Below, piece by piece: positions 3,242-41,443 of a stretch of 41,443 bases of DNA. Below the pieces are notes generated by a model. It was not told the origin of the DNA and ran no database searches. It saw nothing but the letters and a program-made list of their open reading frames with translations. A program made the position numbers and the translations under genes. The first letter of the stretch is position 1. Each line of letters opens with the position of its first letter. The DNA comes from a virus: positions 1-41,443 of IMG/VR virus record IMGVR_UViG_3300049912_000004. One strand, given 5' to 3'.

Positions 3242-4411
3242 TTAGGCCGGCACGGTCTCCTGGACCGGCTCAGGCGGGGGCGGTTCGGCCTGTTCAAGTT
3301 GCTGATTGATCCATGCCTGAATCGCGTTCATCGCGTCCTCGGCATTCTTCTGATAGTCCGTGAGCTGTTTGACTTGGAGCGCCATCAGGATCTGGTCAGT
3401 GGTCAAGGTCAAGTCGTGTCCCCACTTCCAGAACTTAGCCACACGTTCTGGTACTGTCGTCCAGTGAGGTTGCACGGCCTGTTCCGGTTCGTGGTTTTCC
3501 GACGTCGCCGGTTCGTCTGGCTCCTGGTCCTGCGCCAGTGGGGGAGGCGCGGCAGGTTCGGCGTCGTCGTAATCCTCCCAGTTGGGGCCGGCCTGTGCAG
3601 GAAGCGCGGGTAGCGGCGCTGGGGCCTGCAACATCGCTGCTGCCGCACGGTCGTATAGTTGACGTGTGAAGCCGGGGTCCGGCTCCAGTTGTAGGAATTG
3701 CTTTTGTACCGCCTTGCGCTGGCCATTCGGGTCCTTGTACGTGGTCTGTTCTTCGACCATCCGCAACTTGAACGGGATACCGTTCAGCCGCTCGGCGGGT
3801 AGCGTCTCCAAGATGCCCATGAGCGTGTCGTAGTTGCGCTTGCTGCCCGTGCTGACCTGGTAGTATCCCAGACGAAACAGGCGAGGGTCGGCCATCATGA
3901 CCTTGAGCAGGCCGTGCAACTTGCACGCCCCGCAGTGTGGGTACATGTCGCGCGCTTCGCCAGGGCAGGGTACGGTGTCTCCGGGGTCAAAGTGTGTGCC
4001 GTTCCAATCGAACGCCGCTGCCGCGACACCGTTACTCACGCAGGTGTCACCCGGCGCGTTGTAGACACGAACCGTCGTGCTGTCCAGGTTCACGGTGAAT
4101 GGCGTCGCGTACTGCACAAACTCACCATCACCTTGACACACCAGGACTCCGCCCGCCCAAACTTGGTAGTTGGCATCGAAGTTTCTGAGAAGGTCCGGGA
4201 AGGGTAACAGCACGTCCAGCTCCCGTGGCGTCTCCCCGTAGACCTCGATCAACTCTGGCGCATCGACCAGGACAAAGTGATTGTCCTGCACCGGGATCTC
4301 GATCTCCTTGGTCTGCCCGCTCTTGTACCGGATGGTCTTCTTTTCCTTGTGCCCGAGCCTAATCACTCCGAGCCTGGGCAATCGTCTCCTTGTCCGATCC
4401 TTAATAGGCAT
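3242..4411 (-). CDS. Gp3-like protein (recombination directionality factor family)
   Basis: 389 aa. The N-terminus (PIKDRTRRRLPRLGVIRLG), the LLPFPDLLRNFD...YQVWAGG region and a central Cys cluster (VPCPGEARDMYPHCGACKLHG) followed by GYYQVSTGSKRN match the layout I know from the phiC31 Gp3-like family. The founding member switches serine integrase to excision, but many relatives occur in phages without integrases and may be ssDNA-binding or replication proteins. The last ~120 residues are Pro/Glu-rich and acidic. ATG at 4411 has GGAGG six bases before it and overlaps the previous gene. No integrase is encoded in this genome, so directionality control is unlikely here. Confidence 0.65.
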   Translation of the reverse strand: MPIKDRTRRRLPRLGVIRLGHKEKKTIRYKSGQTKEIEIPVQDNHFVLVDAPELIEVYGETPRELDVLLPFPDLLRNFDANYQVWAGGVLVCQGDGEFVQYATPFTVNLDSTTVRVYNAPGDTCVSNGVAAAAFDWNGTHFDPGDTVPCPGEARDMYPHCGACKLHGLLKVMMADPRLFRLGYYQVSTGSKRNYDTLMGILETLPAERLNGIPFKLRMVEEQTTYKDPNGQRKAVQKQFLQLEPDPGFTRQLYDRAAAAMLQAPAPLPALPAQAGPNWEDYDDAEPAAPPPLAQDQEPDEPATSENHEPEQAVQPHWTTVPERVAKFWKWGHDLTLTTDQILMALQVKQLTDYQKNAEDAMNAIQAWINQQLEQAEPPPPEPVQETVPA

Positions 4412-6347: not shown

Positions 6348-6685
6348 AGAAATGACAGCAGTTCATCTTTGTCGATCTGTTTACTGTCCAGCCACATCAG
6401 GCCGTCATCTGGCGATGTGTTCTCGAATACCAGAACGTGGAAGCCATGGTAGTGCGGGTTGGCCTTGCACAGTGCATCAAGTTGCTGGAATATGCAAGAC
6501 TGCCAGTGCTTGGGCTGGCTGCCATGCCGCTTCTCTTCGATGATCATCCAATCCAGAGTATCATAGTTCTTCCAGATATAGTCCACGTTCGTGGCGAGAT
6601 AGCCGCGTTTCGAGTCGATCTCCGGTTGCTCTCTGAGCCACAGGCCGAACTCAGTGGAATGCGCGTCAAATCGTTGCTTGGTCAT
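6329..6685 (-). CDS. Phage protein with PD-(D/E)XK nuclease-like motif
   Basis: 118 aa. The middle reads TNVDYIWKNY...LDWMIIEEKRHG, i.e. an Asp followed ~15 residues later by E-x-K, the core of PD-(D/E)XK nucleases; the C-terminal YHGFHVLVFENTSPDDG is a block I have seen in similar phage proteins. It starts at the ATG at 6685 inside the end of the ParB-methyltransferase gene (20-base overlap), with AGGAG eleven bases upstream. A nuclease partner for that methyltransferase is conceivable but not shown. Confidence 0.55.
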   Translation of the reverse strand: MTKQRFDAHSTEFGLWLREQPEIDSKRGYLATNVDYIWKNYDTLDWMIIEEKRHGSQPKHWQSCIFQQLDALCKANPHYHGFHVLVFENTSPDDGLMWLDSKQIDKDELLSFLQFATR

Positions 6686-7904
6686 GTTCGCTCAATCTCC
6701 TTCTGGAAATGTTCACGTTGGCCTCGTCAATCTCCACACCGTGAAACAGACAACTGTGCATCAGCGATGCGATGCCAGTTGAGCCGCCGCCACAGAATGG
6801 ATCGAGTATCCACTGTCCCGGCAGGCAGACTTGGGTTACCACCGCTGCCATACCGCTGACAGACTGGCCCCAGTCGTGCGGGCCCTTCTCTGGCGCGTCA
6901 CTCACAAACACGTCTCCAAATATCTTTCCGCGATAGGCGTCGCCTTTGCGCGTGAACATGAGCAGTGGCTTCCATGTGGTGTTGACTTGGCGTTGTCGTA
7001 GTGGCGTTGGCTGTCCTGGCGTCAGGTAGGCCGCTGTCCAGTAGTAGTCCAGATGCGCCGTCATCATGGTCATGATCTCGTCTAGGTAGGACTGGCCACA
7101 CATCGCCACGAGTAGGCCACCAGGCCGTAACCACTCAAGGGCCCGGTGCGCCAATGTCTCATACAGTGGCAGGTATTCGCGGGGATAGGGCGGATCGGTG
7201 ATGATGAAGTCGTACTGGCGTGGTGCCGTCCAGGTGGTCATGTCGTCGTGGTAGACTTGCCAGCGGTCGGATGGTTGGATGTTCTGTACCGCCTGAGCCA
7301 TTGCAGCGCGTTCCTCTTTGCGTTTGCGCTCTTTCAGCACCTTCTTGGCCTTTGCCATTGTGAGTTTTCCAGACTCGATCTGTTCTGCCAAGTCGGGGGC
7401 TTCCATCCTCAGTCTCTTCATATCGCGGATATAATGGGCATTGGTTCCGGCGGCTTTTGCAGCCTTCTGCGCTGATTCCTGCTCGGTTTTAGACGGCGGA
7501 ACTTTTTCCGCCGTCTGCCCTGTCGTCTGGTATTCGCTGATCTTCCGCCGCCGTTCCTCTTCTGCCTCCGCCGCATATATCGGCTCTAACTTTTCGCCAA
7601 GCAAGATCTTCTGCTCAGTAGTCAAGTGTCGCCTGTGCAGATTCATTGACAACACAAAGTCAGTTGGCGATCCGTCTGCGTTCCAAGTGTGGAAGTATGG
7701 CTGTATGCCAGCCGCCACACATGCGCGGTGTCGGTTGCGCCCGTCCAGTATACTGCCGTCCGGGTGTAACGTGATCGGCTCCAGAAGACCATGCTCTGCT
7801 ATATCGGCCTTGAGTTGGTCAAAGTCAGCGCCTTCCAGCAGCGGGAACAGTTGCGCCGCTGCGTGGTATGGGCGGTCAAGTTCTGTCTGTAGCCAGTCGG
7901 TCAT
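6666..7904 (-). CDS. ParB-like nuclease domain fused to DNA methyltransferase
   Basis: 412 aa. Residues ~20-110 form a ParB/Srx-like domain (LEPITLHPDG, DGRNRHRA at 54-61, LHRRHLT). A charged helical middle (~110-210) follows, then a beta-class amino-methyltransferase with TDPPYP (D237-Y240) and SAM motif DPFCGGGSTG (from D368). Such fusions occur on phages and conjugative elements and modify DNA, commonly adenine. The ATG at 7904 has GGAG six bases upstream. It is the first gene behind its own promoter (8025-8053) and a structured leader. Paralogous in its second half to the gene at 829-1515. Confidence 0.85.
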   Translation of the reverse strand: MTDWLQTELDRPYHAAAQLFPLLEGADFDQLKADIAEHGLLEPITLHPDGSILDGRNRHRACVAAGIQPYFHTWNADGSPTDFVLSMNLHRRHLTTEQKILLGEKLEPIYAAEAEEERRRKISEYQTTGQTAEKVPPSKTEQESAQKAAKAAGTNAHYIRDMKRLRMEAPDLAEQIESGKLTMAKAKKVLKERKRKEERAAMAQAVQNIQPSDRWQVYHDDMTTWTAPRQYDFIITDPPYPREYLPLYETLAHRALEWLRPGGLLVAMCGQSYLDEIMTMMTAHLDYYWTAAYLTPGQPTPLRQRQVNTTWKPLLMFTRKGDAYRGKIFGDVFVSDAPEKGPHDWGQSVSGMAAVVTQVCLPGQWILDPFCGGGSTGIASLMHSCLFHGVEIDEANVNISRRRLSEHDQATI

Positions 7905-7924
7905 GTTGATCTCCACAAATGCAA

Positions 7925-8019
7925 AGCCCCGGTTGCTCGGCGGTTCCACTTGTCTAGGGTGGAGGTTGTGCCAAACAACCGGGGCTGATTGCCAATGTAT
8001 GAACCTCCGACCCTAGACA
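7925..8019 (-). promoter_or_regulatory. Structured 5' leader with two interleaved inverted repeats
   Basis: AGCCCCGGTTG (7925-7935) is perfectly complementary to 7976-7986. A 17-base arm at 7951-7967 (TGTCTAGGG...GGAGGTT) is complementary to 8002-8019 with one extra base. The arms alternate, so the RNA can form either of two hairpins or an H-type pseudoknot with loops of about 15, 8 and 15 bases. The promoter at 8025-8053 would start transcription at about 8018, right at the first arm, and the last arm ends ten bases before the GGAG of the ParB-methyltransferase gene. Layout fits a translational or attenuation switch. Confidence 0.65.
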
Positions 8020-8055: not shown

Positions 8056-8901
8056 CTACTGCACCTTGCACGAGCAACTGCACAGCACCGTCCCGCCTGC
8101 GCCTGGTGTCGGGCATGGTGCGCAGGCCGTCGGCGTTGGCTGTGGTGTGTACGTCGGATACGGTGTATACGTTGGCTGTGGCGTTGGGGCAGTGGCCCCG
8201 CCTGGAACGAGCACCATCTGCGCATCGTCCACGTACATGTCATTGTGCTTACCAGAATACTTGGTGCTACTCCAGATGGACACGCACGCCCAGGGCTTGA
8301 TCATCTGGACGGGCTGTGAGGTGTATTGCTTGTAGGTCGCACCGACATATTCCCAGTTGGAGAACACCGTGTCCTTGGCGAACCGAGAGCAGTCGCCGCG
8401 CGGGTTAATGCCAATGGTCAGGTAGATCTCAATCTCGCTCTTGCGCGGATCGTCGGTAGCACTTGCCCACGCCTGTGCCCACACCGATACCTGATAGACC
8501 TGGCCAACCTGCACCGGAATCGCCCCTTGCTGGACGCCAGCGTAATGGTTGCGATAGAACGAAAACCACATCTGGCTCTGCTGGCCGCTATGGACGCGGA
8601 TCGGGTCAATTGCCAAGGTCGCCGGTCTGTACTCAGGCCGAGCCGTGGGCACGCTGCCCAGGTTGCCGTCGTGAATAGCAGGATAGCCGGTCAAGCCATC
8701 CCAGTGAAACGGCTCCCACTGCGGTGCGATCTTGACTTCGCCCGCGCTCTCCCAGATGATAGGGTCGCCCTCAAAACTGGGATTCCTCAGCAGGTTCGCG
8801 CCCTGCGCCTGCACCTCTGTCCGTGGCGCGATGATCCACGCCGTGGCTGCAATCGGTATGAAGATCCCGACCAGGATGAATACGGCCGTCAATCGCCTCA
8901 T
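8056..8901 (-). CDS. Secreted carbohydrate-binding-like protein with Thr/Pro/Tyr linker
   Basis: 281 aa. A signal peptide (MRRLTAVFILVGIFIPIAATAW) is followed by NLLRNPSFEG (from residue 36), the hallmark opening of CBM4/9-like jelly-roll domains, ending near 235 with a typical VDDAQMVLV strand. Then comes a repetitive TPQPTYTPYP-like linker and a Cys-rich tail (CAPCP, CSCSCK). It should be exported and bind glycans. Linkers of this kind are common in Chloroflexota secreted proteins. ATG at 8901 has GGAGGTGG upstream. The plus-strand promoter at 8923 fires away from its start. Role could be surface masking or a host-derived moron. Confidence 0.75.
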   Translation of the reverse strand: MRRLTAVFILVGIFIPIAATAWIIAPRTEVQAQGANLLRNPSFEGDPIIWESAGEVKIAPQWEPFHWDGLTGYPAIHDGNLGSVPTARPEYRPATLAIDPIRVHSGQQSQMWFSFYRNHYAGVQQGAIPVQVGQVYQVSVWAQAWASATDDPRKSEIEIYLTIGINPRGDCSRFAKDTVFSNWEYVGATYKQYTSQPVQMIKPWACVSIWSSTKYSGKHNDMYVDDAQMVLVPGGATAPTPQPTYTPYPTYTPQPTPTACAPCPTPGAGGTVLCSCSCKVQ

Positions 8902-8922: not shown

Positions 8923-8951
8923 TTGACAAAGTCCGGTCTACATGATAGAAT
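8923..8951 (+). promoter_or_regulatory. Plus-strand sigma70-type promoter
   Basis: TTGACA (8923-8928), 17-base spacer, TAGAAT (8946-8951): perfect -35, 5/6 -10. It is the only plus-strand promoter recognised and faces against the direction of all genes. An intrinsic terminator for the same strand lies about 95 bases downstream. Confidence 0.8.
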
Positions 8952-8957
8952 ACAATC

Positions 8958-9066
8958 AGAACATCGTGGTATGGCTTGGCATGGCGGGGCTTGGTGCGAC
9001 GTGGCTGGGCCCGGCTTGGCTGGGTAAGGTATGGCAAGGCGAGGCTCCTTAACAGGAGCCTTTTGC
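8958..9066 (+). ncRNA. Candidate ~110-nt small RNA, antisense to the genome's coding direction
   Basis: Bounded by the promoter at 8923-8951 and the terminator at 9042-9068. The body consists of degenerate GGCNN-type pentamers (ATGGCTTGGC, ATGGCGGGGC, CCGGCTTGGC, ATGGCAAGGC). It lies in a gap between two minus-strand genes and would be antisense to any readthrough message covering the leader of the secreted protein gene. It could also code for an 18-residue peptide (ATG at 8971, M-A-W-H-G-G-A-W...) though no ribosome site precedes it; a second short frame starts at 9031 and runs through the terminator. RNA function is the simpler reading. Confidence 0.6.
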
Positions 9067-9068
9067 TT
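9042..9068 (+). terminator. Rho-independent terminator of the plus-strand RNA
   Basis: AGGCTCCT (9042-9049), loop TAAC, AGGAGCCT (9054-9061): a perfect 8-bp stem directly followed by a T-rich tract (TTTTGCTTT) on the plus strand. The minus strand has no T-tract after the stem, so it terminates plus-strand transcription only. Confidence 0.85.
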
Positions 9069-9097
9069 TGGCCGACATGCCATCATTGGTTAAGGAA

Positions 9098-9670
9098 CTA
9101 GGGCAACTTCAGCAGATCCCTCGCAAACGGTGAGGGATCTTGCGTGAAGGCATAAGTGCAAAGTTCCAGTTGCTTACTGGCAGACCACACGCGGGCAAAC
9201 CCAGACACCTTGAGTAGTTTGACCAACGATCCTTCGGAGAAGCCCGTTTTGTGTGCCATAAACTCGCTTCTCTGTCGGTAGGGTGCGAAACCGAAAATGA
9301 TGTCATCGACGTGGATATTGCCTCCCGGTGACGAATAGACAAAGCTGTCCACGTCTAGTTTGTCAGTAGCCACCAACCTAATCAGCGCCAGCAAATCAGG
9401 CACGCGCGTTTCAATCCACCCCTCTGGCTTGATTATATGCCTCATCCCCTTCAGGATTTCCGCCAATTCCCACGGTGGCATATGCTCCAAGAAGTGATTT
9501 GAGTATGCTGCGTCAAACTGTTCCGCTGGTAGCGTAGCCAGTTGCCGCGCGTCCAGCAGGATATCCGGCTCGGCTTCCGGCGCAATGTCCAACCGCACGA
9601 TATCCCAGCCCTGGTAATGTGGCGGGATCGGGATGCCCTTGCCACCCGCGCCAATGTTGAGAACTTTCAT
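9098..9670 (-). CDS. SAM-dependent methyltransferase (class I, type 11-like)
   Basis: 190 aa. N-terminal LNIGAGGKG is the glycine-rich SAM loop; RLDIAPEAEPDI gives the acidic residue after strand 2; SNHFLEHMPPWE and the IIKPEGWIETRVPDL segment are the usual features of small Rossmann methyltransferases that act on sugars, lipids or small molecules rather than DNA. ATG at 9670 has GAGGAA upstream. It follows the tail genes and precedes the secreted protein, so it may modify a surface glycan together with the glycosyltransferase at 17048-17845; substrate unknown. Confidence 0.8.
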   Translation of the reverse strand: MKVLNIGAGGKGIPIPPHYQGWDIVRLDIAPEAEPDILLDARQLATLPAEQFDAAYSNHFLEHMPPWELAEILKGMRHIIKPEGWIETRVPDLLALIRLVATDKLDVDSFVYSSPGGNIHVDDIIFGFAPYRQRSEFMAHKTGFSEGSLVKLLKVSGFARVWSASKQLELCTYAFTQDPSPFARDLLKLP

Positions 9671-40597: not shown

Positions 40598-40802
40598 CGA
40601 CCTCCCCCGTCACCCAATGCAGCAGCTCGGCTCGCACACGCTTGAGCCAGTCCACGCGCCACTGTTCATACTCATCCCAATATCGGGGCATATCGTCGTG
40701 ATCGACGTACTCGATCAGCAGCCGGCGCATGGTGGCCGACTGGCGGACGACAGTATCGAGCAACCGCTTGTGGAGTTTCGCCTTCTTCTTCCAGTTGGTC
40801 AT
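40581..40802 (-). CDS. Hypothetical 73-aa basic helical protein
   Basis: 73 aa. Very basic start (TNWKKKAKLHKRLLDTVVRQSATMRRLL) followed by an acidic, aromatic helix (DDMPRYWDEYEQWRVDWLKRVRAEL). ATGA overlap with the helicase loader gene. Not recognised. Confidence 0.6.
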   Translation of the reverse strand: MTNWKKKAKLHKRLLDTVVRQSATMRRLLIEYVDHDDMPRYWDEYEQWRVDWLKRVRAELLHWVTGEVDAQPV

Positions 40803-41353
40803 CGGTTCACCCCCGGCCCCAACTGTGCCCGGTCCTTCATCTGCGCCGCCAGCTGTTCGATGTACTCGCGCACCTGGGGCAGCATCCGCTCACGATCTCT
40901 CTCGCGGCCCAGCAGCACGTTGTACGCCTCGATGAACCGCGCCCGGTCTGCCGCGTCATTTTCGCTGTCGCACAACGCATACCAGCCGCCGATGCAGTCC
41001 AAAGCGCGATGCACAAGCGGATGCGTCCAGGTCTCTTCCGTCGGCGCGTGCCAACGAGAGAAGCCCCGGCGAAATGCGCGTTTGACCTCGGCCCATGCTT
41101 CCTGAGCTGCCGGTATCCCGTTAGCCGTCTCGCCCAACTCGAAATAGGCTTTCCTCAACTCGGCCACACACGGGAAGAAGGTCGCAGTCGTGATCACCTG
41201 TTGGACAGCCTGCATGAGTCCGTCTGGCTCCAGATCCGCTAGACCCATATACCACGCAGAGGAAATGGCCTCCAGGGGCTGCTGGACTCTCAGCGCTGGC
41301 CAGTTTGCCAGCAGTATCGCCAGTACCTTGTCCACCTCATCATGGGTTGCCAT
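40799..41353 (-). CDS. Replicative helicase loader / G39P-like
   Basis: 184 aa. DEVDKVLAILLANWPAL, AWYMGLADLEPDGLMQAVQQVITTATFFPCVAELRKAYFEL resembles the helical N-terminal domain of G39P-type proteins that load and hold phage or host DnaB helicase. The rest is helical (AWAEVKRAFRRGF, RERMLPQVREYIEQLA). ATG at 41353 has GGAGG six bases upstream and lies inside the end of the replisome organiser gene across the junction (same start seen at 37). No phage helicase was found, so the partner is probably host DnaB. Confidence 0.7.
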   Translation of the reverse strand: MATHDEVDKVLAILLANWPALRVQQPLEAISSAWYMGLADLEPDGLMQAVQQVITTATFFPCVAELRKAYFELGETANGIPAAQEAWAEVKRAFRRGFSRWHAPTEETWTHPLVHRALDCIGGWYALCDSENDAADRARFIEAYNVLLGRERDRERMLPQVREYIEQLAAQMKDRAQLGPGVNR

Positions 41354-41443
41354 GCTCTGCCTCCATTCGTTCGCGCTTGTGCTGTTCCGCCAATGCCAAC
41401 ATGCCCTCAACCGCTGTCTGCCCGCCGTTACTGCCCGGCGGGC
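41317..41443. repeat. 127-bp terminal direct repeat, right copy
   Basis: Exact copy of bases 1-127. It includes the last codons of the replisome organiser (stop at 41340-41342) and the start of the helicase loader, showing that the two genes are continuous across the circle junction. Confidence 0.95.

Follow-up and report, generated by a model that had tools for sequence, protein, structure and literature searches.

A small plus-strand unit in a phage genome probably encodes an orphan guide RNA, a vrRNA which would borrow the Vipr protein of a rival or resident element to silence vipr and so act as a targeting RNA anti-VIPR. VIPR systems, reported in 2026, are RNA-guided, are proposed to predate CRISPR and to serve phage-phage conflicts, and consist of a small RAMP protein, Vipr, together with vrRNAs of 9–16 YNNGG repeats (PMC13142463). 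Each unit of the vrRNA pairs its NN letters with DNA and passes over one base, which is usually the wobble base of a codon (PMC13142463). The unit was found in a viral record of 41,443 nucleotides, the whole of which was analysed and is referred to as the window.

The unit occupies a gap between two minus-strand genes and consists, on the plus strand, of a promoter followed by 16 pentamers and a hairpin terminator. Its features and neighbours are as follows.

8056–8901, minus strand: neighbouring gene, outside the unit, for a secreted protein with weak carbohydrate-binding similarity
8923–8951, plus strand: sigma70-type promoter, TTGACA-17-TAGAAT (11/12 consensus bases), extended by a -10 TG
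8958–9066, plus strand: predicted vrRNA-like transcript of ~109 nt, bounds taken from the promoter and terminator
8965–9044, plus strand: guide of 16 YNNGG repeats (array scanner score 64.1)
9041–9069, plus strand: intrinsic terminator, a 3' hairpin overlapping the last repeat and followed by TTTTGCTTT (sequence and folding)
9098–9670, minus strand: neighbouring gene, outside the unit, for a methyltransferase-like protein (Pfam Methyltransf_23/11)

The promoter confirms an earlier note on this DNA, which had described a near-consensus sigma70 promoter with a 17-base spacer. It is one of two sites with 11/12 consensus bases in 40 kb, and transcription is predicted to start near 8958. The predicted RNA folds with -48.4 kcal/mol (z -2.8) and is close in length to the SUSP1 vrRNAs of ~100 nt (PMC13142463). 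Its terminator hairpin at 9041–9062, GAGGCTCCT-TAAC-AGGAGCCTT, has a local fold of -18.4 kcal/mol (z -3.6) which was equalled by no shuffle. The perfect 8-bp stem of the earlier note holds as eight perfect pairs plus one G-T, but the T-tract it had described is interrupted by GC, and the terminator is of moderate grade for this reason. All genes with assigned families in the window are on the minus strand, and the unit does run against the direction of the genes as had been claimed. The sequence likewise supports the claim of a small RNA extending from promoter to terminator.

Possession of its own promoter appears to be unusual for an array. A promoter with at least 10/12 consensus bases no more than 65 nt upstream was found for five of the 478 arrays examined, with two found for random controls. 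This arrangement fits a stand-alone gene, comparable to the solitary CRISPR repeat units of viruses. In another contig, L275, an array at 4192–4228 lies just downstream of a perfect TTGACA-16-TATAAT promoter, and the same contig has an HNG-type vipr gene.

From its sequence, the identity of the array as a vrRNA guide is near certain. The GGYNN scanner detected one array in the whole window, at 8965–9044, and its score compares with a maximum of 24.5 among 100 first-order Markov sequences of window length and the same dinucleotide make-up. In a control, the same scanner recovered four vrRNAs in phage SUSP1, where two neighbouring genes are preceded by one of them and followed by the other three, in agreement with the published description (PMC13142463). 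The NN series of the guide is GT AT TT AT GG TT GC GT TG CC TT TG AA AT AA GA, with unit 7 degenerate (TGCGA, or YNNGA). With 16 units, the array lies in the vrRNA range of 9–16 tandem YNNGG repeats, in which GGY is conserved and NN varies. The repeats are followed by a structured 3' tail, the hairpin at 9041–9062, and the decoded letters match DNA with a 1-nt skip at the wobble position, though imperfectly. In SUSP1 the vrRNA tail is a pseudoknot (PMC13142463), and the 3' tails of arrays differ from locus to locus. GGYNN arrays are common across viral contigs. The earlier note had described the array as GGCNN pentamers, resembling arrays in other phages without an assigned function. The array itself is real; its conserved triplet is GGY (GGC or GGT), not GGC alone, and the pentamers correspond to a published guide-RNA code (PMC13142463).

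That the array is a functionless relic, or that the unit is a transcribed tiny peptide gene or an antisense leader, is highly improbable. One repeat is degenerate and small open frames are present, but 15 of the 16 repeats, the promoter, and the terminator are intact. The tiny peptide gene suggested by the earlier note would lack a ribosome-binding site, and its longest frame begins upstream of the predicted transcription start. An RNA antisense to the adjacent leader, also suggested, is unsupported, as the decoded guide instead matches vipr in other phages. The earlier note had proposed looking for homologous arrays in related phages; 18 longer TerL relatives gave only chance-like 3-mismatch matches, so the unit lacks conservation within its lineage. 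No relatives of the locus were found among named phages, nor any of the adjacent tail protein, and a search for the same guide letters in other phages found none.

The guide was decoded by the published 1-nt-skip rule (PMC13142463); its 16 NN give 32 bases, and the resulting target pattern is CANAANGGNCANACNGCNAANCC. Over an initial 2.5 Mb of fetched loci, skip-1 matching peaked at 24/32, at sites inside vipr genes, compared with 21–22 for three shuffled guides. This collection is rich in VIPR loci because it was fetched by array patterns; the vipr motif was not used in fetching. The reverse complement of the guide encodes S[LF][IM][LF][HQ][NK]G[HQ]TA[NK]P[IM][NK][IM]T, which falls at the HNGQTA.P.N motif of vipr, invariant in one large Vipr group. 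Among 61 vipr genes fetched without the guide, 2 out of 5000 shuffled guides attained a match of 24. Enlargement of the set by 80 further HNG-type loci gave 126 distinct vipr genes with 63 sites of at least 22/32 and up to 26/32, and none of 1500 shuffles yielded as many. Every vipr site of at least 22/32 reads in frame 0 of the coding strand, and the base passed over falls at codon wobble; skips of 0, 2, and 3 gave only 19–20, which is background level. Of 396 guides, none matches vipr as well as that of the window (z 7.0, with the next at 4.1). Weaker candidate guides against vipr (z 3.3–4.1) are found at L042:524–581, L109:3769–3826, and L298:1382–1449, and the predicted target of the L042 guide is the codons directly past the HNG motif.

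An exact search with the eight central NN, a pattern picked after the motif had already been seen, gave 16 matches in 2.9 million viral contigs. Seven of these were in array-adjacent vipr genes, with a best vipr match of 26/32, and the positions outside the pattern agree at 8–10 of 16 versus a random expectation of 4. A perfect target was sought in viral contigs via the two guide halves, which gave 16 and 43 matches with a best of 23/32. An exact 12-NN search across 84,980 genomes gave no match, and no perfect or near-perfect target was found in them. The real target is therefore either unsampled or mismatches are tolerated. Known guides do not match the window itself above the level of a reversed-sequence control. 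That the guide is aimed at the vipr genes of other phages is well supported by these sequence matches.

Two other readings of the decoded letters must be weighed here. It is very unlikely that the guide has a different target, such as a satellite or prophage, with the likeness to vipr arising by chance or indirectly, for example through a gene sharing HNGQTANP-like codons. Most of the natural targets described are satellites and prophages (PMC13142463), and even the best vipr match is imperfect. Against this, non-vipr matches never exceed 24 and consist of isolated, unrelated sites, many of them in stop-containing frames, while every vipr site of at least 22 is in frame. It is also distinctly unlikely that the RNA merely titrates foreign Vipr as a sponge, in the manner of a Racr decoy, with the NN content being irrelevant. 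The autonomous promoter and the lack of a protein partner recall the solitary repeat units which act as RNA anti-CRISPRs (PMC10651486). However, the order of the NN letters matches vipr far above shuffles and in codon frame, which counts against a sponge because a sponge needs no such information. An unspecified decoy, as the earlier note had put forward, is similarly unsupported given the match of the guide code to vipr, although a Vipr-titrating effect may exist alongside targeting.

The protein partner was approached through the arrays. A family of ~200-aa proteins is found near arrays, is common to 62 array-bearing loci, and includes SUSP1 vipr as a member. Its profile matches PDB 36pp_D, 'SUSP1 Vipr protein', with an E of 1.7e-49. 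A structure model built from alignment A3 with the SUSP1 row left out (pLDDT 96) matches CRISPR RAMP subunits, e.g. Csm3. This array-adjacent family is Vipr. PADLOC and Pfam contain no model matching Vipr or the window candidates. Near the vipr genes of L017 (3464–4052) and L069 (8456–9132) there are uninterrupted GGYNN tracts of about 40–100 units, which perhaps provide several guides from one transcript.

No Vipr was detected in the window. Vipr-family HMMs gave no match in six frames, and neither did a separate genome-wide alignment-profile search. Comparison of every window ORF of at least 90 aa with Vipr by hhalign gave a probability of at most 2.6%, where single members of one Vipr half compared with the other half, as a positive control, gave 82–100%. 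No plausible gene with a glycine-loop motif was found, and a second array-adjacent family, the only one covered for the question of vap accessory genes, is also absent from the window. As far as these profiles reach, the phage appears from its sequence to have no recognisable vipr, with HMM, hhalign, and alignment searches all failing to find one in the same locus or genome as a complete VIPR system would have.

It is unlikely that the window nonetheless carries a complete VIPR system, in which an own Vipr, unrecognised as very diverged or differently built, silences competitors' vipr with the single vrRNA. Some of the seven described VIPR types have a single vrRNA, and certain vrRNAs target other VIPR systems (PMC13142463). 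Several window proteins of 120–200 aa have no assigned family, and the evidence from vipr matches is the same as for an orphan guide. This reading is opposed by the low hhalign probabilities beside such high cross-subfamily controls, by the missing glycine-loop motif, and by the position of the array, with its own promoter, apart from any candidate gene.

The completeness of the record also bears on the orphan reading. The end genes of the window are a replication organiser (24–881) and a replication-type gene (40799–41410), and homologues of both lie next to each other, separated by about 35 bases, in a relative whose terminase is 66% identical. Judged by gene adjacency in this one relative, the window appears to be a near-complete genome that is circularly permuted. 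As the contig ends meet on the relative's map, a missing piece is unlikely. Elsewhere in the window, the minus-strand gene at 3242–4411 encodes a Gp3-like recombination directionality factor domain, and family scans of the window revealed no integrase. The minus-strand gene at 6666–7949 joins a ParB-like domain to an N6/N4 DNA methyltransferase, and a second such methyltransferase is encoded at 829–1953.

Seven other long records of 32–55 kb (L011, L022, L029, L051, L059, L067, and L095) have strong GGYNN arrays and no match to the Vipr profile. These are either further orphan guides or undescribed Vipr types. The existence of long contigs with arrays but no recognised Vipr means that orphan guides may be a class.

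The vrRNAs of Escherichia phage SUSP1 and a Pseudomonas fulva prophage are among the closest comparisons for the window RNA. They share with it 9–16 YNNGG repeats in an RNA of ~100 nt (a length predicted in the case of the window), a structured 3' end, a phage-encoded origin, and an NN code with one base skipped at wobble, and some published ones aim at other VIPR systems (PMC13142463). The window differs in that no vipr was found, in having one unit only, served by a strong promoter and a terminator of its own, and in a guide directed against the coding sequence of vipr itself. Racrs, the solitary CRISPR repeat units of phages, are also lone guide-like RNAs with their own promoter and no gene for a cognate protein partner, and are presumed to use the protein of a rival (PMC10651486). 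Unlike the window RNA with its 32-base target code, they act through aberrant complexes without target information (PMC10651486). The window unit also shows no CRISPR-repeat mimicry, as its repeats are YNNGG and Rfam gave no family at threshold over the window, CRISPR repeat families included. The CRISPR mini-arrays of the Saccharolobus viruses SPV1 and SPV2 similarly provide only a guide, borrow the effector, and target a competitor (PMC11656645). They use another effector family and code, whereas the window guide targets the gene for the very effector that it would borrow. The window unit is like Racrs and mini-arrays in carrying only RNA, yet is neither.

We infer a mechanism in which the unit is transcribed on infection, the RNA is loaded by Vipr in trans, and vipr is repressed. 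The plus-strand guide RNA would be made upon infection and loaded by Vipr which a rival phage, a prophage, or a resident element supplies. The loaded complex would then be directed to the vipr gene itself, which would shut down the rival's supply of Vipr while also occupying the protein. Within the HNGQTA codons, positions one and two are almost fixed, and therefore synonymous change would give no escape and one guide could reach many vipr genes. The broader proposition, that phages carry orphan, self-expressed guides which steer a competitor's Vipr to the most conserved motif of its own vipr, is somewhat more plausible than its negation. To our knowledge, no earlier counter-measure against VIPR has been described. 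Orphan guides are not mentioned in the main text of PMC13142463, whose supplements may list them, and no other paper within the literature searched names vrRNAs.

If true, an orphan guide against vipr would mean that counter-weapons exist in VIPR conflicts and that guides can act in trans on the protein of a rival. The wobble-skipping code would let a single guide cover many rivals. The orphan guide would be the counterpart, in an independent system, of Racrs and viral CRISPR mini-arrays, and it offers a concrete guide-target pair for testing.
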